A stretch of DNA of 39,531 nucleotides, from positions 1 through 39,531 of IMG/VR virus record IMGVR_UViG_3300027985_001060. One strand, given 5' to 3'. This document shows, in pieces, positions 15,830-38,596 of this stretch. The notes beneath the pieces were generated by a model. The model saw only the letters and a program-made list of their open reading frames with translations, ran no database searches and had not been told where the DNA came from. Position numbers and translations under genes: made by a program. Source of the stretch: a virus. Within the stretch, counting starts at the first letter, position 1. Every line of letters begins with the position of its first letter.

Positions 15830-18800
15830 ATGAGAGACGATATATCGACCGATCTAAAAAATAAACTTGTAATAAATGGTGCGACACCGATTTATTATCT
15901 TATTTTTCATTTTGCAACTGGTGACGAATATGTTTCAGATCGTCAGATGTATACAGCTGATGGACACCTGACGAACGATCTTCTTTCTGGTGTTGTAAAC
16001 ATTCGTCAGTCAGCAGCCTTAGACGAAGCTGTGAACAATCTTCTATTGCCAAACACTGAGATAAAAATCACTTTGAAAAATACATCTTTGACAGGGTGGT
16101 TTTGTTCTAAGATTAATGTCAATCCTATAGAAAACACCAAAGTATCTCTATATTTGACATCTTCAGATTCTGTAGATAGTCTATTGATCGATAAATATTT
16201 GATTCGTGACCCTATAGAATATTCTGAAGATTCTCCTTTTGTCGATTTGACTTTAGTCACAAGTATTCTCGCACAGAATGTGACTATTGGCGGGATAGAC
16301 CCTGCGACAAATGATTACTATCCGCTAGTTGTTGGCGCAGCAGCAGAAATAATAGGTAGCCCTTACGGTGATCAAAAAATTGCCAAAATAACCGCTACTA
16401 TAAACTCTGGAACAACAGTTATTCCTACAGATCGGGACTTAGTAACAGCCGGGTTTCCTAGTTCTGGTGACCTCTCGTTAGGTTTTGGGACATGTCATTA
16501 CGCTGGAATTTCTAGTCAAAGTTTTACAGGTGTGACAGGAATTGACATAGAGGTTCCTGTAAATTCCTACATATGTGCGTTACATAACGACATAACGTTT
16601 GCGTATGGAATTGGCCCAGTGGACATTGCAGAGCCATTGTATGTGAACGGAGAAATTTACGAATACGATTATACTGTTTATAAAAACGAAACCACTGTGA
16701 AAGTTGTGTTTCCTGACAGTTTGCCTTATCGCATTCAAACTTTATATGAAAACAAGCATGTAAACAATAACTTGTCGCAAAGCATGTACTTAGATTCAAG
16801 TTATTATATTGCAACCTATGACAGTTATAACATTACCAGTGATGCAGTAATCACTTATATAACTAAAAATACTGCGGCACCGTGGAGTTCTCGTGTTTTG
16901 TTTAAAAAAGCTATTAGTTTAGACTTTCAAATCCCAGAAGGTGCTGTAATAACATCGACTAATATATATCTGAAAGTTAGTCTAGGGTCTTATTCCGGTA
17001 GCCAATATGTAGGTAAAGGGTATACGGTTATAAGCGGTAAACTACACGGTGTGGAAATTTATGGCAAATTGAATCCGTCAACAGTACAATCGGATTATTG
17101 GAGATATGTGACATGGTTGTACGACAAAAACAACATAACAAAATCCAATACTGTTGTAAATGACCCTGACCAAAATTATTTCCAATTAGAATTTACAGGG
17201 TTCGATTTTGTGTCACCGCTGACACAATTCGGACCTTTTCAGACATCTGAATTTTTCGAATTTTCAATGTCTGTCACTTATGAACAAGTGAAACCCGGGT
17301 ATCCTAAAAAAATCTACACTGTCACAACGTCTTTGAGTATTGGTAGCTCTTCAGGTTCGATGAACCCTAGCACTCTCATTCAATCCGTAGTCAAACAACA
17401 AAGTCCTGATACGAAAATAGATTCGGCATCATTCCTTAACTGTTACAATTGGTTTGAAACTAACAATTATTCTTTTGCGGGTACAGTTGACGGCGGAATG
17501 TATTGTCTTGACCTACTCAAACATTTATTGTTTTTGAGTAGGAGTTATTTGACTTTTGCTGGAGGATATGTGAAGCTGCATATTTCACAACTTCCTAATT
17601 CAGCAGAATCGAAGATTATTTCGACAGAAGACACGAGACTGCCGAAGAGTATAAAAATCAAAAGACAACCGGTAGACGATATATCGAATAATATTACGCT
17701 TCGATATGATTATAATCTGACTACAGAATTATACGACTCGGTGTATAACAATTTTGAACAAGATTCAATTGAAATTTTAGGTGTGCACGAAACGACGGTC
17801 GACGGATGGTTGATTGTAAATTCTGAGCACGCTCAGAATTTAACAGATTATTGGCTGGCAGAAAAATCTATACCAAAAACAGTTTTTACAATTAAAGAAA
17901 CCGCCAGAATGACAGGTGTAGAGATCGGCGATTCTGTCATTGTAAAAACTGATTATTCAGATATTCGTTTTTTCACCGGCACAGTGATTAAACTTGACAA
18001 ATCTCCAGCAACAAAAGACAATGTAACAACTTACAATCTAACACTGGTCGGAAAACTGAACCCACCGCCTAAAATAATCAATTTGTATGATGACGCTGTC
18101 AATGTTGTGGAGGTTAGATGGATAACAGCTATTGACGGTAATGGCCTTCATAGTTTAGCTATCAAATCTGATAACACTCTGTGGGCTTGGGGCTGGAATG
18201 CGTACGGACAGCTAGGCGACGGAACAACAACTGATCGCCATTCTCCTGTGCAGGTAGGGTCAGACACTGATTGGGTCGAGTGTCGCGGCGGTTATTCTTT
18301 CAGCGCAGGTTTAAAATCTAACGGCACATTGTGGACATGGGGACTGAATCAGTATGGTGAATTGGGTGACGGAACAACAACTGATCGCCATTCTCCTGTG
18401 CAGGTAGGGTCAGACACTGATTGGGTTAATTGTAATCTAGGTTATCGTCACAGCTTGGGAATCAAATCTGATAACACTCTATGGGCGTGGGGACTGAATC
18501 AGTATGGTGCGTTGGGTGACGGAACAACAACTGATCGCCATTCTCCTGTGCAGGTAGGGTCAGACACTGATTGGGCTGATTGTCGTGGCGGCTATCGTCA
18601 CAGCTTGGGAATCAAATCTGATAACACGCTGTGGGCTTGGGGCTGGAATGTGTACGGACAGCTAGGCGACGGAACAACAACTGATCGCCATTCTCCTGTG
18701 CAGGTAGGGTCAGACACTGATTGGGTTAACTGCAGTGGAGGTGGTGTCCACAATTTAGCTGTTAAGTCCGATGGTACGCTGTGGGCTTGGGGCAGAAATG

Positions 18801-19339
18801 TGTACGGACAGCTAGGCGACGGAACAACAACTGATCGCCATTCTCCTGTGCAGATAGGTTCAGACACTGATTGGATTAACTGTGACGCAGGCTACGAGTA
18901 CAGTTTAGCTATCAAATCTGATAACACTCTGTGGGCTTGGGGCAGAAATGTGTACGGACAGCTAGGCGACGGAACAACAACTGATCGCCATTCTCCTGTG
19001 CAGATAGGCTACGGTAGCCTATACAGAGCAGGACATATTCACTGTATTTCCACGACGAATCTAAACGATCTTTTAACTTGGGGCAGAAATCAGTACGGAC
19101 AGTTGGGTGACGGAACAACAACAGATCGTCATTCACCTACAGTAATCGACGATCAGTATAGAGTGTTGAAAGAATCCTTTAAAATCAATGATTCTTCTAT
19201 TGACATTGTCGAATTAATGGATGCTGAGACATCGCTCGGTTGGTCGATTGCTCCTTGGAGTATTCTTCCTTGGTCGGATAAAGCACCTACTTCAGGATGG
19301 AGCATAGACCCGTGGAGCACTTCAGGATGGTCAATTTAA
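15830..19339 (+). CDS. Tail hub/tip protein with C-terminal RCC1 beta-propeller
   Basis: This is a 1169-aa distal tail protein. Residues 1-750 look like a tail hub: MRDDISTDLKNKL, then TGDEYVSDRQMYTADGHLTNDLLSG, and near 620-745 a gp27-like portion (DDISNNITLRYDYNL, then TDYSDIRFFTGTVIKL). Residues 763-1113 hold seven RCC1 repeats of about 50 residues. The consensus is L-x-IKSDNTLWAWGxNxYGQLGDGTTTDRHSPVQ, which would form a beta-propeller. The DNA of the first six repeats has an exact 150-base period. The last 56 residues return to a hub-like stretch and end in a GWSI/PWS-rich tail. It is probably the receptor-contacting tip. Which cell-surface molecule the propeller binds cannot be told. Confidence 0.78.
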   Translation: MRDDISTDLKNKLVINGATPIYYLIFHFATGDEYVSDRQMYTADGHLTNDLLSGVVNIRQSAALDEAVNNLLLPNTEIKITLKNTSLTGWFCSKINVNPIENTKVSLYLTSSDSVDSLLIDKYLIRDPIEYSEDSPFVDLTLVTSILAQNVTIGGIDPATNDYYPLVVGAAAEIIGSPYGDQKIAKITATINSGTTVIPTDRDLVTAGFPSSGDLSLGFGTCHYAGISSQSFTGVTGIDIEVPVNSYICALHNDITFAYGIGPVDIAEPLYVNGEIYEYDYTVYKNETTVKVVFPDSLPYRIQTLYENKHVNNNLSQSMYLDSSYYIATYDSYNITSDAVITYITKNTAAPWSSRVLFKKAISLDFQIPEGAVITSTNIYLKVSLGSYSGSQYVGKGYTVISGKLHGVEIYGKLNPSTVQSDYWRYVTWLYDKNNITKSNTVVNDPDQNYFQLEFTGFDFVSPLTQFGPFQTSEFFEFSMSVTYEQVKPGYPKKIYTVTTSLSIGSSSGSMNPSTLIQSVVKQQSPDTKIDSASFLNCYNWFETNNYSFAGTVDGGMYCLDLLKHLLFLSRSYLTFAGGYVKLHISQLPNSAESKIISTEDTRLPKSIKIKRQPVDDISNNITLRYDYNLTTELYDSVYNNFEQDSIEILGVHETTVDGWLIVNSEHAQNLTDYWLAEKSIPKTVFTIKETARMTGVEIGDSVIVKTDYSDIRFFTGTVIKLDKSPATKDNVTTYNLTLVGKLNPPPKIINLYDDAVNVVEVRWITAIDGNGLHSLAIKSDNTLWAWGWNAYGQLGDGTTTDRHSPVQVGSDTDWVECRGGYSFSAGLKSNGTLWTWGLNQYGELGDGTTTDRHSPVQVGSDTDWVNCNLGYRHSLGIKSDNTLWAWGLNQYGALGDGTTTDRHSPVQVGSDTDWADCRGGYRHSLGIKSDNTLWAWGWNVYGQLGDGTTTDRHSPVQVGSDTDWVNCSGGGVHNLAVKSDGTLWAWGRNVYGQLGDGTTTDRHSPVQIGSDTDWINCDAGYEYSLAIKSDNTLWAWGRNVYGQLGDGTTTDRHSPVQIGYGSLYRAGHIHCISTTNLNDLLTWGRNQYGQLGDGTTTDRHSPTVIDDQYRVLKESFKINDSSIDIVELMDAETSLGWSIAPWSILPWSDKAPTSGWSIDPWSTSGWSI
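18119..19150 (+). repeat. 150-bp tandem repeats encoding RCC1 blades
   Basis: The segment beginning GGCGACGGAACAACAACTG recurs at or near 18211, 18361, 18511, 18661, 18811 and 18961, exactly 150 bases apart, with a seventh, more diverged copy near 19102. About half of each unit is almost identical at the DNA level, while the blade segment between (for example ECRGGYSFSAGL against NCNLGYRHSLGI) varies. This suggests recent expansion by unequal recombination, with variation kept in the loops. Confidence 0.9.
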
Positions 19340-20910: not shown

Positions 20911-21165
20911 TTAACGTATTAACGCTTGATGGATATTGCCTTTTCCGTCATAGCCACCCGTGATCTTTTTAGACTGTTGAAGTCTTCTTTTACAGGTGGT
21001 TATGAAGTCTTCAACAGTCGAACCTTGATTGTATTTCTGCGATGCTTTGAAGACTTCATAATCTTCTTGATCTCCGCCAGATTTGAAGATTGCAGTCATT
21101 TCTGAATCCATTTCACCGTAAGGAATCGTCCATCCCCAAGGACCGTTCGTTATATCTGTTTTCAT
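20911..21165 (-). CDS. Hypothetical protein, last gene of the - strand operon
   Basis: This is an 84-aa protein that I do not recognise. It begins MKTDITNGPWGWTIPYGEMD and has a hydrophilic helical remainder (EVFKASQKYNQGSTVEDFITTCKRRLQQSKKI) with no membrane or signal segment. GAGGTGG precedes the ATG, and the start overlaps the stop of the next gene upstream (ATGA), so the pair is co-translated. It lies next to the terminator. Confidence 0.55.
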   Translation of the reverse strand: MKTDITNGPWGWTIPYGEMDSEMTAIFKSGGDQEDYEVFKASQKYNQGSTVEDFITTCKRRLQQSKKITGGYDGKGNIHQALIR

Positions 21166-21347
21166 CGTACCACCTCTATTTTACGAAGTTTAGAATCTGA
21201 CAACAGAGTGTCTTTGTGGAAATAATACCTGCCGCTTCTTCGGCTAACTACCGTAATCATTGAATCTTTAATCTCTGTTACAAAGGCACTGTCGATATAT
21301 TTTTCCCCGACAGCGGTTATTATCACTACCTTGTCCCCAGTCTTCAT
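21162..21347 (-). CDS. Small hypothetical protein, KOW/SH3-like pattern
   Basis: This 61-aa protein is mostly beta strand: MKTGDKVVIITAVGEKY, then DSAFVTEIKDSMITVVSRRSGRYYFHKDTLL. It has the look of a small SH3-like or KOW-like barrel, but I cannot name a family. A strong GGAGG seven bases before the start lies inside the possible hsdS remnant, so this gene marks the point where phage sequence resumes after the hsdM island. It is co-translated with the downstream 84-aa gene through an ATGA overlap. Confidence 0.55.
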   Translation of the reverse strand: MKTGDKVVIITAVGEKYIDSAFVTEIKDSMITVVSRRSGRYYFHKDTLLSDSKLRKIEVVR

Positions 21348-21391
21348 GATTTGCGCCTCCAGTCGGTTAGGGGAATCGTCGGTAAACTCAT
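21344..21391 (-). pseudogene. Possible hsdS 5' remnant (15 codons)
   Basis: The last bases of hsdM form an ATGA overlap with an ATG that opens MSLPTIPLTDWRRKS and then a stop. hsdS normally starts exactly this way, overlapping or just after hsdM. The stop is created within the ATG of the following phage gene. With no specificity subunit elsewhere in the window, the simplest reading is that hsdS was cut off after about 13-15 codons when the island entered or was trimmed. It is too short to prove by similarity. Confidence 0.35.
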
Positions 21392-22947
21392 GGCTGAATA
21401 TTCTTCAGCTTCTCGGCCATCTTCACCCGCACCGCTACCAGCTCTTTCTCCAAATCATCAATCTCCATCTGCACCACATCGATATCGATCTCCTCTTCCT
21501 CCTCAAAGGTGTCCACATAGCGGGGGATATTGAGGTTAAAGTCGTTTTCCTTGATCTCGGCGAACTCTGCCACATGGGCGTATTTCTCTTTTTCGGTCCG
21601 GGCCGCGCATATCGCCATAATCTTGTCGATATGCGCCTCCGAGAGGGTGTTCTGGTTTTTACCCGAAACAAACTCCCGGCTGGCATCGACAAAGAAGACG
21701 TTTTTGCATTCTTCACGTGCTCCGCCTTTTTCACGGGAGCGATCAAAGACCAGAATCGCTACCGGAATATTGGTGGTCGGAAACAGATTGCCCGGCAGAC
21801 CGATTACGGCATCCAGCAGATTTTCCTCAATCATTTTTTGGCGGATACGGCCTTCGGTTGCACCTCGAAACAGCACACCATGGGGCACCACCACGGCAAC
21901 GCGGCCTTGCTTTTCAAGAGCCGTCTCAACCATGTGGCTGATAAAGGCCCAGTCGCCTTTGCTCTTGGGCGGCACCCCGCGCCAGAAGCGGTTATACTGA
22001 TCGCTCTCGGCATTCTCAGCACCCCATTTGTCCAACGAGAAGGGCGGATTGGCCACCACGCAATTGAATTTCATGAGCCGGTCATTTTCCACCAGCAGTG
22101 GGCTGTTCAGCGTATCGCACCATTCAATTCTAGCACTGTCAAAGCTGTGCAGGAACATATTCATGCGGCAGAGTGCCCATGTGCTGCCGTTGGATTCCTG
22201 ACCAAAAAGGGCAAAGTTGCGGTTACCCACCGCTTTGCCCGCCTGAATCAGAAGGCCGCCTGAGCCGCAGGCTGGGTCACAGATGCGATCGCCCGGTTTC
22301 GGTCCTGCTAGCCGGACTACCAGTTCAGTTGCCTTCAGCGGGGTAAAAAACTCTCCGGCCTTCTTGCCGGAATCAGAGGAAAAGTGCTCAATCAGGTAGA
22401 TGTAGGTATTACCGATCACATCCTCAGAAACGAGGCTGGGCTTCATATTGAGCTGCGCCTTGTGAAAATCTTCCAGTAGTTGCTTCAGGCGGCGGTTGCG
22501 GTCTTTAGTTTTGCCAAGATTGGCCTCGCTGTTGAAGTCGATATTACGGAACACCCCTTCGAGTTTTTTTTTGTTACTCTCTTCAATATGGTCGAGCACG
22601 ATATTGATCAGCTCACCGATATTGGCGGCTGATCGTCGCTCATACAGGCTGTAATAGGTGGCAGGGAATTCATCCAGAACCGTTTCTTCACCGGTTTCCT
22701 TGTTCTTTTCAATGAGTTTCACCACAGGGAGAACAAAACGTTCACGTTCGAGCTTGCGGCGGATACGAACATCATCACCATACTGCTTTTGATATTCTTC
22801 GTAGTGGTCCTGCCAGACATCAGAGATATATTTCACAAACAGCATCACGAGGATGTAGTCTTTATACTGCGCCGGGTCAACAACACCCCGGAAGGTGTCA
22901 CAAGCCGCCTTTACCGCGTTGTTGATGTCTTTTTGGTCAATCTTCAT
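21388..22947 (-). CDS. hsdM: Type I restriction-modification DNA methyltransferase subunit HsdM, orphan
   Basis: This is a full-length 519-aa N6-adenine methyltransferase subunit. Residues 1-130 are the HsdM N-terminal helical domain (DINNAVKAACDTFRG, DYILVMLFVKYISDVW). The catalytic domain contains GEFFTP, motif I DPACGSGGLL near 225 for AdoMet binding, and motif IV NPPF near 300 for the target base. The C-terminal LSEAHIDKIMAICAARTEKEKYAHVAEFAEI and FNLNIPRYVDTFEEEE are also family features. HsdM needs HsdS to recognise DNA, and neither hsdS nor hsdR is present. G+C is clearly higher than in neighbouring phage genes (39 of 60 bases at 22261-22320, 17 of 60 at 25441-25500), which marks recent acquisition, presumably from a host. 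It may borrow host HsdS to protect phage DNA. Confidence 0.93.
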   Translation of the reverse strand: MKIDQKDINNAVKAACDTFRGVVDPAQYKDYILVMLFVKYISDVWQDHYEEYQKQYGDDVRIRRKLERERFVLPVVKLIEKNKETGEETVLDEFPATYYSLYERRSAANIGELINIVLDHIEESNKKKLEGVFRNIDFNSEANLGKTKDRNRRLKQLLEDFHKAQLNMKPSLVSEDVIGNTYIYLIEHFSSDSGKKAGEFFTPLKATELVVRLAGPKPGDRICDPACGSGGLLIQAGKAVGNRNFALFGQESNGSTWALCRMNMFLHSFDSARIEWCDTLNSPLLVENDRLMKFNCVVANPPFSLDKWGAENAESDQYNRFWRGVPPKSKGDWAFISHMVETALEKQGRVAVVVPHGVLFRGATEGRIRQKMIEENLLDAVIGLPGNLFPTTNIPVAILVFDRSREKGGAREECKNVFFVDASREFVSGKNQNTLSEAHIDKIMAICAARTEKEKYAHVAEFAEIKENDFNLNIPRYVDTFEEEEEIDIDVVQMEIDDLEKELVAVRVKMAEKLKNIQP

Positions 22948-22958
22948 GATTATACCCT

Positions 22959-22992
22959 ATTCAGTTTGTCTGCCCATTCAGTTTGTCTGCCC
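22959..22992. repeat. 17-bp perfect tandem duplication at hsdM boundary
   Basis: ATTCAGTTTGTCTGCCC occurs twice back to back (22959-22975 and 22976-22992), directly upstream of hsdM. It encodes the last residues of the small upstream gene (WADKLN, then a frame-shifted repeat). It may be a scar of the insertion that brought hsdM. Confidence 0.85.
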
Positions 22993-23161
22993 ATGAAAGC
23001 ACCCTCAAATATTCAGAAGGTGTAATATCTACCGCAGTTATGACAATCCTGTAATCATCGTAAGTTTTCTGAGGTTCCCCGGCCATAAAAAATTCTTTAG
23101 CTATCGGTCTACTCATGATCTGCTCATAACTCATTTCCCATTTTACAGAAGGTGCGTTCAT
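22961..23161 (-). CDS. Small hypothetical protein upstream of hsdM
   Basis: This is a 66-aa protein, soluble and mixed alpha/beta (MNAPSVKWEMSYEQIMSRPIAKEFFMAGEPQKTYDDYRIVITAVDITPSEYLRVLSWADKL). I do not recognise a family. GAGGA precedes the ATG. It is the first gene after the promoter at 23204-23232. Its last ten codons run into the 17-bp duplication, so the original C-terminus may have been different and the present NGQTN end may be a product of the duplication. Confidence 0.5.
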   Translation of the reverse strand: MNAPSVKWEMSYEQIMSRPIAKEFFMAGEPQKTYDDYRIVITAVDITPSEYLRVLSWADKLNGQTN

Positions 23162-23203: not shown

Positions 23204-23232
23204 ATAATAGAGGATAACAAGACCGATGTCAA
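23204..23232 (-). promoter_or_regulatory. Sigma70-type promoter overlapped by an inverted repeat
   Basis: On the - strand, TTGACA (23227-23232), a 17-base spacer and TATTAT (23204-23209) form a near-consensus promoter about 40 bases upstream of the 66-aa gene. An 11-base-pair inverted repeat (TTATCCTCTAT at 23189-23199 and its complement at 23207-23217) overlaps the -10 box and the start point, so it could be an operator. It should drive the small gene, hsdM and the two terminal genes. Confidence 0.7.
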
Positions 23233-29893: not shown

Positions 29894-29922
29894 ATAATAA
29901 ACTACTGTTCAACCGTTGTCAA
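29894..29922 (-). promoter_or_regulatory. Sigma70-type promoter for the acidic-repeat/nuclease/polymerase operon
   Basis: On the - strand, TTGACA (29917-29922), 17 bases, then TATTAT (29894-29899). The -35 box overlaps the end of the helicase gene. The start point would be about 30 bases before the ATG of the acidic repeat gene. It should transcribe that gene through thyX. Confidence 0.75.
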
Positions 29923-31543
29923 GAAGTTTTCCAAGAATAATTGACATTTTTTTATTTGTCAAAGATAAACACGAAATGGTGTCCGTACCAGTCATAGCGT
30001 AAAATTTCCTGAATATTTCTGACAGCTTATAGTTTTCAATCACTCTATCGAAAATCCATTTTCTAACCGTTTTATCCAATAGTTCTCTGGTTTTTATTTC
30101 CTCCTTTTTATTTTTCGCTGCTGAATATGCGGCAACGGTCGGTGCACCGGCTCTGAGCATTTTGTTTTTCAACTCTTCCGGCGACTCAGAATTGGAAATC
30201 AATAAATTGCGTTTCATTTCTGCGATTGTTTCCTTATCAAGAAGAGTGAGATCGCCATCTACCATGTCAGGAGTAACACGTTCTCTTTTCTTAGGTTCAT
30301 AACCACAGTAAGGGCATGACATTTCTGTTTTACTGTAAACCATGCAACATTCTGGACATGGTTTGATTATAGATACTTGTGACTTGCTTGAAACAACACT
30401 AGAACCTCTATCTAACGACCATACTCTATGCTGATCTGGCAACCCGTGTCCGCCGTGTTCAGGCATAACGTTGCCCACATGATCGATAATCAGACCGTAC
30501 TGTTTACCTTCGCAAGGTCTGAGAACTCTACCAACTGCTTGCATATACCAGCCCAACGATGCAGTTTTTCTGCCCATGGAAACAACTTCGATAGCTGGTA
30601 AATCGAAGCCTTCAGCGAATAAATCAACGTTGATCAATTGATGGATTTCTTTATTTCTAAACGCTCGAACAGCATCAAATCTTTCTGCGTCTGGTGTATT
30701 CGAGGTCAAAACACATGATCTGATGCCTGAAGCTCTAAATTGTTGGTTAACATCTTCGCACAATTTAACTGATGGCATAAACGTTATTCCGAGTTTCCCT
30801 TGAGCGAGCTTCTTGTAATTATCAACAATATCCCCGATTATCATAGCTTTCTCGGTTCTGGAGATAATTTCTTTCGTTGTCCAGTCACCGTCAGAACCTT
30901 TTTTTGCGCCGGTCATGTCAATATATTTTCCGGGAAAGTATATCCGGTATTCGGTGAGATTACCTTGTTCGATGTGCCACTCGACATTTTCACCTTCAAC
31001 CATCAAATCGAAAATGCCATCTGCATGAGAGCCAAGACCCTTCTTGTCTGTCCGCTGCGGTGTGGCGGTAACACCCAATCCTTTCGCATCACCAAACGAA
31101 TTCACAGCTTTACCCCACATGTTAGAATTCAAGACGTGGTGACCTTCATCAATAATCCAGTAATCGTAATGCGTTAGGTCTTTATTTCTTCTGACCACAG
31201 TGTTGACACTCATTACTGTTAATCTCGAGTCAGGTCTATAGTAGCATTTGCTCAGCTCGTCATATTGAATTTTACAAATTGATCGGATTATGTTACTCGG
31301 AGCTAGAATACTGTGGTTAATCTCATACTTCCCGAGTGTCACAGAAATCTGTGACAATAATTCTTTACGATGCACCAACAACGCAACCTTAAACCCTTGA
31401 TCTGATAAAACTTTCGCGATATGACAGAAACAAACCGTTTTACCTGTCCCGGTCGGTTGAACTTGAAGAATTTTATTGTATCCAGAATTCCATGCTTCAA
31501 AAGTTCTGGATACAATATCAGTCTGATAGTCTCTGAGTTTCAT
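29909..31543 (-). CDS. SF2 DNA helicase, DEAD/DEAH type
   Basis: This is a 544-aa helicase. Motifs: LRDYQTDIV at the start (Q-motif region), Walker A PTGTGKT (30-36), Ia LLVHRKELL, motif II DEGHH (132-136), motif III TATP (159-162), ITFMPSVKLCEDV and ISVDLFAEGFD-like INVDLFAEGFDLP (motif V), and motif VI QAVGRVLRP. Near residue 390 lies a zinc ribbon (CPECCMVYSKTEMSCPYCGYEP). The family (SSL2/RecG-like helicases of phages) unwinds or anneals DNA during replication and recombination. It starts three bases after the LRR-like gene. Confidence 0.9.
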   Translation of the reverse strand: MKLRDYQTDIVSRTFEAWNSGYNKILQVQPTGTGKTVCFCHIAKVLSDQGFKVALLVHRKELLSQISVTLGKYEINHSILAPSNIIRSICKIQYDELSKCYYRPDSRLTVMSVNTVVRRNKDLTHYDYWIIDEGHHVLNSNMWGKAVNSFGDAKGLGVTATPQRTDKKGLGSHADGIFDLMVEGENVEWHIEQGNLTEYRIYFPGKYIDMTGAKKGSDGDWTTKEIISRTEKAMIIGDIVDNYKKLAQGKLGITFMPSVKLCEDVNQQFRASGIRSCVLTSNTPDAERFDAVRAFRNKEIHQLINVDLFAEGFDLPAIEVVSMGRKTASLGWYMQAVGRVLRPCEGKQYGLIIDHVGNVMPEHGGHGLPDQHRVWSLDRGSSVVSSKSQVSIIKPCPECCMVYSKTEMSCPYCGYEPKKRERVTPDMVDGDLTLLDKETIAEMKRNLLISNSESPEELKNKMLRAGAPTVAAYSAAKNKKEEIKTRELLDKTVRKWIFDRVIENYKLSEIFRKFYAMTGTDTISCLSLTNKKMSIILGKLLDNG

Positions 31544-32206: not shown

Positions 32207-32575
32207 ATGAAAAATGAATCTTTAGTACAGCAAGAAATACGATTGAAAGCGTCGCAGAAAGGTGTCATTCTTTGGCGTAATAACTCCGGGTGTATGAAAA
32301 CACCATCGGGCGGTTTCGTTCGTTTTGGACTAGGAAACGAATCCAAAGAGATGAACAAAAAATTTAAGTCTGCTGATCTCATCGGTATAACCCCCCATGT
32401 GATAACCGCTGACGACATCGGTAAAACGGTTGGTATCTTCACAAGTATTGAGGTGAAGAAGGAAGGGTGGAAAACTGATAATTCCACCCGGTCTAAAGGT
32501 CAATCCGCTTGGGCAAAACTGATCACAAGGTTAGGAGGCATATCAAAGATTATCAGTTCGCCAGATGATATATAA
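32207..32575 (+). CDS. VRR-NUC domain nuclease
   Basis: This is a stand-alone 122-aa VRR-NUC. Motifs: QQEIRLKASQKGVILWRNNSG (Glu10 and the RNN block), FVRFGLG (VRF), SADLIGITP (Asp57), GIFTSIEVKKEG (Glu82 and Lys84, the catalytic E-x-K), and SKGQSAWAKLITRLGG (Gln99). Phage members of the family cut Holliday junctions or flaps. It lies on the + strand inside a long - strand block. Its ATG touches the ATG of the divergent gene, and its 3' end overlaps the end of the convergent repeat gene by 23 bases. No promoter is visible for it, so how it is expressed is unclear. Confidence 0.9.
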   Translation: MKNESLVQQEIRLKASQKGVILWRNNSGCMKTPSGGFVRFGLGNESKEMNKKFKSADLIGITPHVITADDIGKTVGIFTSIEVKKEGWKTDNSTRSKGQSAWAKLITRLGGISKIISSPDDI

Positions 32576-33134
32576 ACACACCTTTTGCGCGATCTTCGAT
32601 GGTGATTTCACAAGAATCTAAGTCGCCAGATAACTCGGAACAGTCACCGTACAACCCGGAGCAATCACCGCGCAACTCGGAGCAATCACCAGATAACCCG
32701 GAGCAATTTCCAGATAACCTGGAGCAATTTCCAGATAACCTGGAGCAATTTCCGTATAACTCGGAACAATCACCAGATAACCCGGAGCAATCACCGCGCA
32801 ACTCGGAGCAATCACCAGATAACCCGGAACAATCACCAGATAACCTGGAACAATCACCAGATAACCCGGAGCAATTTCCGTATAACTCGGAACAGTCACC
32901 AGATAACCCGGAGCAATTTCCGTATAACTCGGAGCAATCACCAGATAACCTGGAACAATCACCGCGCAACCCGGAACAATCACCAGATAACCTGGAACAA
33001 TCACCAGATAACCCGGAGCAATCACCGCGCAACTCGGAGCAATCACCAGATAACCCGGAGTAATCACCGTACAACCTAGAGCAATCATCAGATAGCTTGG
33101 AGCAATCTGTTTTTATAACAAGCATCTTCTTCAT
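32553..33134 (-). CDS. Protein of 23 tandem cysteine heptads (DCSxLxG)
   Basis: This 193-aa protein is almost entirely repeat. After nine residues (MKKMLVIKT) come 23 uninterrupted seven-residue units with consensus [DN]CS-[GER]-L-[SYR]-G, then 23 residues ending DLDSCEITIEDRAKGVFIYHLAN. Only unit 3 lacks the Cys (DYSGLSG). The regular Cys-Ser-x-Leu-x-Gly-Asp pattern suggests a solenoid or beta-helix with stacked Cys and Leu ladders. A Cys-less GDVSGL version with the same ending seems familiar from other phages. The function is unknown. AAGGAG precedes the ATG, and the gene overlaps the upstream stop (ATGA), which marks this strand, not the open + strand, as coding. Confidence 0.78.
   Translation of the reverse strand: MKKMLVIKTDCSKLSDDCSRLYGDYSGLSGDCSELRGDCSGLSGDCSRLSGDCSGLRGDCSRLSGDCSELYGNCSGLSGDCSELYGNCSGLSGDCSRLSGDCSGLSGDCSELRGDCSGLSGDCSELYGNCSRLSGNCSRLSGNCSGLSGDCSELRGDCSGLYGDCSELSGDLDSCEITIEDRAKGVFIYHLAN
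32625..33107. repeat. 21-bp tandem repeats (23 units)
   Basis: This is the DNA basis of the heptad protein: about 480 bases of 21-base units, each containing a variant of TCNCCAGATAACCCGGAGCA on the + strand. Because the period is a multiple of three, long open frames also appear on the + strand and in another - strand frame. Units differ at a few positions only. Confidence 0.92.
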
Positions 33135-36391: not shown

Positions 36392-37042
36392 TTATTCAGA
36401 TTCCCACGCTTCGCTGAAATTCTCATCAGCGAACAACTCCGCCAAACCTGTAATTTGCTTCAACCTCAACACTTCATCCATATCCATACCTAACTCCTTT
36501 GCGATTTTTTTATCAGACCAATTTTTCCTAGACAACTCCACAACTATATCAGACATCGCTGATATAGCATGTTTACCTCTAGCTCTATTGTGTCTAATTG
36601 TTGATGCGATTCTATCCCCACGTCCTTCTCGACTTTGGTTTATAGTGGTGACAGGTAAGTAACCTGTCACCTTTTTCTTCACATCATCGCATTCATTCCC
36701 GACTCGGTATCGATGAAATCCGTCTATAACTTCTCTCTTACCTTCTTCGTCCACCCAAGATACAATCGGTTGAGTGTACCCATCTTCTCGAATACTGTGT
36801 GTCAACAGTTCCATCTCGGGAGGAGCTACAGAATTTGGATTGTAATCGTTGGCAAAAATCGTATCATGAGGAACCCATATTACACAGTCCACCGGCTCAT
36901 CTTTGAATGGTGATATTTTATGGATGATTATTTTTATCGCATTTATCGCATCAATCTTCGATGAATCATCCATTCCTGATGTAACTGATCGAATAATAGA
37001 TTCGACTTCTTTTAACCATTCCGGTTTATTTATCTTTTCCAT
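36392..37042 (-). CDS. ibrB: ParB-like protein, IbrB type
   Basis: This 216-aa protein has a ParB/Srx fold core: WVPHDTIFANDYNPNSVAPPEMELLTHSIREDGYTQPIVSW, then REVIDGFHRYRV (103-114, the motif that binds CTP or ATP in ParB-type proteins), then RGDRIASTIRHNRARGKH. A C-terminal HTH follows (WSDKKIAKELGMDMDEVLRLKQITGLAELF). The partner gene directly upstream encodes the PAPS-reductase-like IbrA, and they overlap by 13 bases. IbrA and IbrB were described together in E. coli as activators of eib genes, and the pair is common in phages. The biochemical role is not settled. Confidence 0.82.
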   Translation of the reverse strand: MEKINKPEWLKEVESIIRSVTSGMDDSSKIDAINAIKIIIHKISPFKDEPVDCVIWVPHDTIFANDYNPNSVAPPEMELLTHSIREDGYTQPIVSWVDEEGKREVIDGFHRYRVGNECDDVKKKVTGYLPVTTINQSREGRGDRIASTIRHNRARGKHAISAMSDIVVELSRKNWSDKKIAKELGMDMDEVLRLKQITGLAELFADENFSEAWESE

Positions 37043-38298
37043 AATGGAAAGTATCCTCTTTGCATTTTTCTTTTAACCATATACTTTCTATAACGTTCGT
37101 AATTTCCAGATACGTTCGGTACGAAAGTTAACCCTTTACACCAATAATCATGCCGTAGCAAACATTTCGCTATTCTTCTCCAAGACGGGGCTTTCTTCGC
37201 AGCTTCTAGCGAATGGTGTACTTCGTCTGGTATATCACCTCTTATCGTACAGAAGTCGCCGTTTTCGTCGAAAAAACCCCCTTTTTCTGTCCACCATCTT
37301 ATGAATGTAAATATTTTATCGTCATAATGATCTGCCAACTTTTCTGGCATGGAATTCATGATCAACATAGAAAAACTTTTCCATGTGTGACCTGGAGGGA
37401 GACTGATTTTCAGTTGTCCTGATATGTTACCTGAATATTTGACAAATTCTGCTCCAGAATTTGCTCCGTTGACTCTGGATACAATCTTTGCCCACGTATC
37501 AGGTTCCAGGATGTGAAACAACCATAGACCTTTTCGCTGATCTACACCGTATGGCTGACACAGTCTCTGCTGATGCAAAGACAATCCGGCACAACGCATA
37601 AGGTCATAGATTTTGTTATGGCACTTTCCGGTTTTTCCGTGGTATCTCCAAATGTCTTCAACCTTCCAATCATATATTGGATGAGTTGAATACACGGGTA
37701 AACCTGTTGACTTCTGTCGCAAACACCACATTTTTTTATTATAAAACTCTCTGTTGTGTTTCACGGAGAGTTTTAAATGCCTGTTAAAACTCTCCTCTGT
37801 TCTTATTCCGATGAAGACCGCTGTATCTTCTCCGCCGGAATACCATTTACCGAATTCGTGTACAAAATCTTCAAATTCCATTCCGGGAACGTAAAAAGGA
37901 AAGTATTTTTCGTCCGATATTACAAATTTATTTTTCGGTCTCGGTCGAACTAATTCCTTTCCGTCTTCCCAACATGTCCAACGCGGTTCGTATTCTGAAA
38001 CAGCGTTGTCGAGAGATATCGGCAGACACACCCAATACGGTATTATCACGTCTTCGTATAAGTTATAAATCTCTTCAACGTGTTCATATGTGTGTCGGTA
38101 TTGAGCTTCAAAATCGACACACAGCAATCCTACCTTGACACCTCTTCTGATAGCCTCTTCACACACGAGATGTGTCATGACCGTAGAGTCTTTCCCGCCA
38201 CTAAAAGAAATGTATATTCTTTTAAAGTTATCAAAAATATAAGATATTCTTTCAGTGGCCGCTGTCAACACGTCAACACCTAACATTTTCTTAGCCAT
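37030..38298 (-). CDS. ibrA: PAPS-reductase-like PP-loop protein, IbrA type (DUF3440)
   Basis: This 422-aa protein has the PP-loop SFSGGKDST at residues 31-39, which binds and cleaves ATP. The typical IbrA/DUF3440 blocks follow: LLCVDFEAQYRHTYEHVEEI, YWVCLPISLDNAVSEYEPRWTCWE, FIGIRTEESFNRHL, HPIYDWKVEDIWRYHGKTG, YDLMRCAGLSLHQQRLCQPYG and LPPGHTWKSFS. The family is related to PAPS and DndC-like sulphur-transfer proteins. It has no obvious CxxC partner domain here, so whether it uses sulphur is unknown. I chose the ATG at 38298, preceded by GAGGAACAGC, over a longer open frame. It is paired with the IbrB-like gene. Confidence 0.88.
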   Translation of the reverse strand: MAKKMLGVDVLTAATERISYIFDNFKRIYISFSGGKDSTVMTHLVCEEAIRRGVKVGLLCVDFEAQYRHTYEHVEEIYNLYEDVIIPYWVCLPISLDNAVSEYEPRWTCWEDGKELVRPRPKNKFVISDEKYFPFYVPGMEFEDFVHEFGKWYSGGEDTAVFIGIRTEESFNRHLKLSVKHNREFYNKKMWCLRQKSTGLPVYSTHPIYDWKVEDIWRYHGKTGKCHNKIYDLMRCAGLSLHQQRLCQPYGVDQRKGLWLFHILEPDTWAKIVSRVNGANSGAEFVKYSGNISGQLKISLPPGHTWKSFSMLIMNSMPEKLADHYDDKIFTFIRWWTEKGGFFDENGDFCTIRGDIPDEVHHSLEAAKKAPSWRRIAKCLLRHDYWCKGLTFVPNVSGNYERYRKYMVKRKMQRGYFPLWKR

Positions 38299-38596
38299 TT
38301 GCTGTTCCTCGTAGAAGTTTATTGTACTTCTCCCATCCCGCAGCGACCAGCAGAGTATAATAACGCTTCCACTCTGCTGGCATAGACTCGTCAATTTTCG
38401 TGAGAATGTCAATCATTTTACACGCTGATGATAATGAATTTCCGACACAAATGACAAGAGGTGTATGGACTCTCGGTAACGCCGCACTCTTGAAGTCTTC
38501 AACACAGTACTGGTTGTATCCAGCCTCTGTGTTCATTGATACGATATATCCATATTCAGTCGGTTTTCCGTTCTCAGGGTATATTATTGTTCTCAT
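38291..38596 (-). CDS. Small protein linked to the IbrAB-like pair
   Basis: This is a 101-aa protein of unknown family, mixed alpha/beta: MRTIIYPENGKPTEYGYIVSMNTEAGYNQYCVEDFKSAALPRVHTPLVICVGNSLSSACKMIDILTKI, then ESMPAEWKRYYTLLVAAGWEKYNKLL. It has AGGAG at good spacing. Its stop overlaps the ibrA-like start by eight bases, so the three genes form one translational unit. It may be a third component of the module or simply a neighbour. Confidence 0.6.
   Translation of the reverse strand: MRTIIYPENGKPTEYGYIVSMNTEAGYNQYCVEDFKSAALPRVHTPLVICVGNSLSSACKMIDILTKIDESMPAEWKRYYTLLVAAGWEKYNKLLRGTANG

Follow-up and report, generated by a model that had tools for sequence, protein, structure and literature searches.

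What use could a phage make of a type I DNA methyltransferase subunit carried without its partners? Because type I specificity changes quickly through the HsdS subunit, it is hard for a phage to bring along a suitable methylase; and HsdM, which has no target-recognition domain, is expected to be inert when alone—as is established for the family. The question is raised by one gene in IMG/VR virus record IMGVR_UViG_3300027985_001060, analyzed here over its entire 39,531 nucleotides (hereafter, the window). Phage methylases without a specificity of their own are already known, and this locus is a variant of that theme, represented by a single instance. Solitary phage DNA methyltransferases are likewise encoded without a restriction partner, yet they recognize DNA themselves, which a type I HsdM is not equipped to do.

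The hsdM gene and its phage context

The first-pass annotation had described the gene as encoding a full-length type I methyltransferase subunit in a phage, and both parts of this description were borne out. The open reading frame starts with an ATG at position 22947 of the minus strand and runs for 519 codons without interruption. Its product matched the Pfam families N6_Mtase (E = 3.8e-98) and HsdM_N (E = 6.3e-26), passed the curated equivalog cut-off of TIGR00497 (hsdM; 287 bits against a cut-off of 243), and also matched phrog_2713, a phage protein family without known function. The SAM-binding and catalytic motifs GEFFTP, DPACGSGG and NPPF are all intact, with conservation of D224-P225...G228 and N300-P301-P302-F303. 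The predicted structure (mean pLDDT 77) found its best solved match in PacII M1 (7vru_A; Z 39.0, rmsd 6.0, 477 residues aligned, 35% identity), and solved HsdM chains aligned along its entire length. PacII (PDB 7vru, 7vs4) is an M1M2S enzyme with two different M subunits and an S, whereas the phage encodes one M and no S. Single-chain enzymes of type IIG, type IIB or type ISP were ruled out, as there is no fused target-recognition domain or nuclease: HsdM_N, N6_Mtase and a short C-terminal helix account for all 519 residues. On these sequence features, the product is a full-length type I HsdM.

The phage nature of the record is evident from a plus-strand block encoding terminase, portal, protease, capsid and tail proteins, and from a minus-strand block with thyX, DNA polymerase, SSB, exonuclease, helicase, primase, ParB-like and PAPS-reductase-like genes. 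No integrase was found among the scanned window genes, and a tRNA scan of the window returned none. The record is linear, without end repeats, and the phage genome may be incomplete. Relatives sought in IMG/VR through the polymerase, the terminase, the portal and the hsdM neighbor reached at best 37% identity, while the polymerase matched those of Klebsiella and Escherichia siphophages at 46%. Since no related phage with or without hsdM was found in this way, an empty site could not be seen, and the locus stands as a single case.

Small open reading frames flank hsdM, which is one of the last genes of the minus-strand block (Table 1). The gene is probably transcribed together with the minus-strand (replication) genes. 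Ahead of it and the 66-aa ORF is a promoter-like sequence of a quality (at least 11 of 12 positions) expected 0.43 times per strand of the whole window and found three times on the minus strand. The stem-loop that separates the convergent blocks is a probable bidirectional terminator, judged by its fold. At the upstream border, a tandem duplication alters the last residues of the 66-aa ORF and may be an insertion scar.

Table 1. Features at and around hsdM; positions are those of the window.
Feature	Position	Strand	Remarks
hsdM, 519 aa, type I DNA adenine methyltransferase subunit	21388..22947	-	GC-rich insert; ORF, domains, composition
66-aa ORF	22961..23161	-	directly upstream of hsdM; phage-like composition, no family match
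17-bp perfect tandem duplication (TTCAGTTTGTCTGCCCA, twice)	22960..22993		upstream hsdM border, end of 66-aa ORF
61-aa ORF	21162..21347	-	downstream of hsdM; own ribosome-binding site GGAGG; no NCBIfam match
84-aa ORF	20911..21165	-	last of minus-strand block; no NCBIfam match
Promoter-like TTGACA-17-TATTAT (11/12)	23204..23232	-	upstream of 66-aa ORF and hsdM; consensus match only
Perfect 15-bp stem-loop	20863..20900		between convergent blocks; -23.0 kcal/mol on plus strand

Partner subunits in the window and in other hsdM loci

The gene had been reported to stand alone, and dedicated searches agree. Profiles for HsdS, for the short S-like protein termed mini-S below and for the BRO-N protein gave nothing significant across the 39.5 kb, lax thresholds included; profiles able to detect a half-S of 140 aa gave nothing significant in frames of at least 25 aa (best E 0.04, in a 37-codon frame), and Pfam Methylase_S was absent from the larger unknown window genes scanned. 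The HsdR motor and nuclease subunit was not found in the window by profile search either, the sole, weak match being the phage's own SF2 helicase (29909-31543, phrog_16). An M2S enzyme supposes an HsdS encoded with HsdM, and none accompanies the gene in the window. By these searches, the phage hsdM is a true orphan within its 39.5 kb.

How unusual this arrangement is can be gauged from 100 other viral HsdM loci (21 records from an annotated collection and 79 IMG/VR loci), which are not independent events since some are near-copies of each other and some are prophages: an S-like gene was found nearby in 93 of them (20 of the 21 annotated records and 73 of the 79 IMG/VR loci). In the six IMG/VR loci without one, the sequence stops no more than 1.1 kb beyond hsdM; in the remaining viral locus without S (L111), the gene is split and sits at the edge of its record. 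The window is therefore an outlier, with S absent despite 16.6 kb of sequence on one side of hsdM and 21.4 kb on the other. Where S was found in viral loci, it lay near or adjoining HsdM, and in some phages it measured only ~140 aa (L100, L101). HsdM-family methyltransferases thus occur in other phages and prophages—IMG/VR loci L003, L005 and L118-L166 among others, the P1-like phage phi456, and the Streptococcus phages Pika and phiZJ20091101-4—but those type I loci carry an HsdS or half-HsdS and often an HsdR, while the phage described here has neither. None of the other viral HsdM proteins exceeded 75% identity to this one. Some viral loci (L168-L170, L007, L192) contain a tandem hsdM pair, followed by one hsdS where the contig continues, and resemble the PacII M1M2S arrangement.

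Cellular operons of the same hsdM family have a recurrent layout, with mini-S upstream of hsdM, often a BRO-N protein, and a full HsdS and HsdR downstream. Among loci with sufficient room, the mini-S, a short single-TRD S-like gene, lay directly upstream of hsdM in 68 of 72, and a full HsdS lay downstream in 48 of 51. Full HsdS sequences are highly variable and HsdM is conserved (identity correlation 0.35), so that one M appears able to meet many S subunits. The cellular clade closest to the phage gene (L012, L021, L014 and L015) resembles it in motifs, length and high GC3; its members keep mini-S, often BRO-N, HsdS and HsdR, in contrast to the phage, which has hsdM only and bears the substitution W13K.

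The mini-S genes themselves encode ~190-220 aa with a single-TRD Methylase_S domain and often overlap hsdM (L011-L090; e.g., L012:7410-7985, L015:3885-4460 and L040:7410-7985); they are also found upstream of hsdM in most viral loci of the subfamily (L003, L005, L118-L166). Their divergence tracks that of HsdM (r 0.83) far more closely than does the divergence of full-length HsdS, which is encoded separately. Mini-S thus has the look of a constant, second S-like subunit. In many loci (L013, L015, L018, L021, L044 and others), hsdM and hsdS are separated by the gene for the BRO-N protein, of ~285 aa.

Composition, origin and constraint

The gene had further been called a visibly recent, GC-rich acquisition. 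Its foreign composition is clear: GC content is 51.2% against 41.2% in the other phage genes of at least 140 aa (z 3.4), and GC3 is 61.5% against 37.4% (sd 4.1; z 5.9), with the shift stopping at the hsdM borders in a 100-base GC profile. The contrast drawn earlier between hsdM and the polymerase gene is likewise real, but the two sampled lines on which it was based exaggerate its size, because the polymerase is the most AT-rich large gene of the phage (35.4%). Similarity to cellular DNA is confined to the open reading frame, with blastn matches beginning close to the start codon and finishing at the stop; an apparent 15-nt upstream homology proved to be alignment slack, the bases before the ATG having no correspondence to cellular loci. 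A remnant of an operon beside hsdM was sought by sequence comparison and partner profiles, and none was found. Together, the GC3 outlier and the homology limited to the ORF support acquisition of an orphan gene.

Recency, on the other hand, holds only in part. The closest cellular copies share 89-92% amino acid identity over the whole protein and ~82-86% nucleotide identity; no full-length copy closer than ~92% at the amino acid level was found among the best 80 cellular loci and 395 genomes from the phylum of L014. At the nearest sampled copies, ~14-15% of bases differ and the synonymous distance is ~0.66-0.75, a value that yields no date of entry. Moreover, GC3 is ~63-72% in most members of the clade, even where the flanking genome has 43-47% GC; the lineage stays GC-rich in GC-poor cells too, so high GC characterizes this mobile hsdM lineage and, on such sequence comparison, is neither a clock nor a pointer to a GC-rich donor. 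Composition thus supports a foreign origin and dates the entry only weakly. The excess of AT-directed third-position changes (32 versus 8) fits adaptation to an AT-rich genome; its use as a clock was dropped, because cellular members such as L015 are equally biased.

Nor did the suggested search for the nearest hsdM lead to a donor. The closest copies reside in type I operons of Planctomycetota, Kiritimatiellota, Thermodesulfobacteriota and other phyla, and their clade, supported as a whole, mixes phyla with many internal forks unresolved, so no donor can be named. Capture of the hsdM ORF only, from a type I restriction-modification family that moves horizontally, would best explain these sequence patterns.

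The ratio dN/dS between phage HsdM and its closest cellular copies is 0.06-0.08 (0.04-0.10 among the cellular copies), and the phage branch, estimated from three points, gave ~0.08. With divergence spread evenly along the gene, these low values give no sign of decay, although they may mostly predate entry into the phage. Four changes, A12V, W13K, V206A and A211V, occurred at columns that are at least 97% conserved, compared with 0-1 such changes in the closest sampled cellular copies; they could reflect impaired function. Of 81 aligned homologs, 80 have a tryptophan at position 13, as do the aligned solved HsdM chains with the N-terminus shown, whereas the phage protein has a lysine there; this tryptophan is a conserved residue rather than a defining feature of HsdM. 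In the predicted structure, A12V and W13K fall within the first helix (residues 5-19) of the N-terminal domain, and W13K could represent either damage or changed regulation. The C-terminal part has changed little, A491V and R519P being its only changes at clade-invariant positions.

Candidate roles for an HsdM without HsdS

We tentatively propose that hsdM serves the phage as an accessory gene: its product would combine with a host HsdS and methylate phage DNA. The steps that we infer for pairing, expression timing and protection would run as follows: the phage HsdM would dimerize and bind the HsdS belonging to a type I system of its own family that resides in the host; the resulting hybrid M2S methyltransferase would methylate replicating phage DNA in the host's pattern; and progeny marked in this way would be spared restriction by hosts of matching specificity. 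By relying on the S of its host, the phage would acquire the specificity currently in force there without encoding an S. Phage-made HsdM would arrive too late for the first incoming genome, and only replicated DNA and progeny would benefit. Subunit exchange within type I families is established, and phage Ral promotes modification through the N-terminal domain of HsdM (PMC12707154). The proposed scheme is similar to the action of lambda Ral in that a host type I enzyme would be steered to modify phage DNA (PMC12707154); Ral differs, however, in being a 67-aa modulator of host HsdM and not HsdM itself.

The intact ORF and catalytic motifs, the full-length structural match, the low dN/dS, the little-changed C-terminal part, the lack of S, R and mini-S and the ORF-only homology appear to support borrowing of a host HsdS, whereas the single case, the need to presume a compatible host HsdS, and W13K with A12V, V206A and A211V count against it. 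The first-pass annotation had envisaged either such pairing or competition with host HsdM; both are plausible, and pairing would be the most economical and the best explanation. If true, a constant subunit plus a borrowed HsdS would provide the appropriate methylation pattern in any strain of a compatible family. Our survey marks the S-less arrangement as unusual among viral HsdM, and among the papers searched there was no description of an S-less phage HsdM that uses a host HsdS.

It is also conceivable, if somewhat unlikely, that hsdM is a recent passenger—caught by illegitimate recombination and of no useful function, with W13K and the other changes as early decay. A missing S partner, when nearly all other viral hsdM genes keep one, would fit this account, as would the changes at near-invariant columns and retention of the gene by no known relatives; yet the intact 519-codon frame and catalytic motifs, the low dN/dS and the placement among small same-strand phage genes, with a plausible promoter and terminator, speak for a working gene, and the changes are not excessive overall (12 clade-unique residues versus 9-10 in several cellular members). 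Even as a passenger, the gene would still document the capture of a single subunit, cut at ORF borders, from a type I family found in many phyla. We consider it unlikely that the protein acts as a decoy or poison, competing for HsdS and forming complexes that methylate without HsdR restriction or that methylate new sites faster. Such an HsdM would resemble an EcoKI de novo methylation mutant, with the same outcome as lambda Ral. The N-terminal domain of EcoKI HsdM determines whether methylation is of the maintenance or the de novo kind, and it is through this domain that the enzyme responds to lambda Ral; restriction was also lost in 5 of 14 mutants of the domain (PMC12707154). The phage-specific A12V and W13K lie in the first helix of that very domain. 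The likeness to these mutants is drawn at the level of the domain, and W13K could simply disturb the helix. More specific still, and distinctly improbable in our estimation, is an A12V/W13K HsdM that replaces Ral, displacing host HsdM on HsdS, methylating unmodified phage DNA de novo with any specificity that the host happens to have, and blocking the switch to restriction.

Two further accounts would do away with the orphan itself, and we give little credence to either. An S gene might have been missed, being very divergent or located in a missing part of the genome: the linear record without end repeats may be incomplete, and some phage S proteins measure only ~140 aa. Against this very unlikely case, viral S genes, where found, lie near or next to HsdM and at least 16 kb per side contains none here, with the half-S profiles and Methylase_S both silent over the frames and genes covered. 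An assembly chimera, joining a bacterial hsdM fragment into a phage contig, would agree with the sharp change of composition at both borders and with how common this hsdM lineage is in metagenomes. It would, however, require two breaks, one falling where the ORF starts and one where it stops, with no additional cellular sequence flanking hsdM and intact phage genes beyond each border, and is similarly remote.

Other genes of the phage deserve brief mention. A 1169-aa tail-region protein (15830-19339, plus strand) contains RCC1-like (regulator of chromosome condensation) repeats and is probably involved in receptor binding. On the minus strand, a 193-aa protein (32553-33134) has an unusual composition, a reversed AT skew and weak matches to repeat-type Pfam families. 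The ParB-like gene (phrog_2159) adjoins the PAPS-reductase-like gene (phrog_2302) at 36392-38412, forming an IbrB/IbrA-like pair on the minus strand for which, by analogy, a role in DNA modification or defense is possible.
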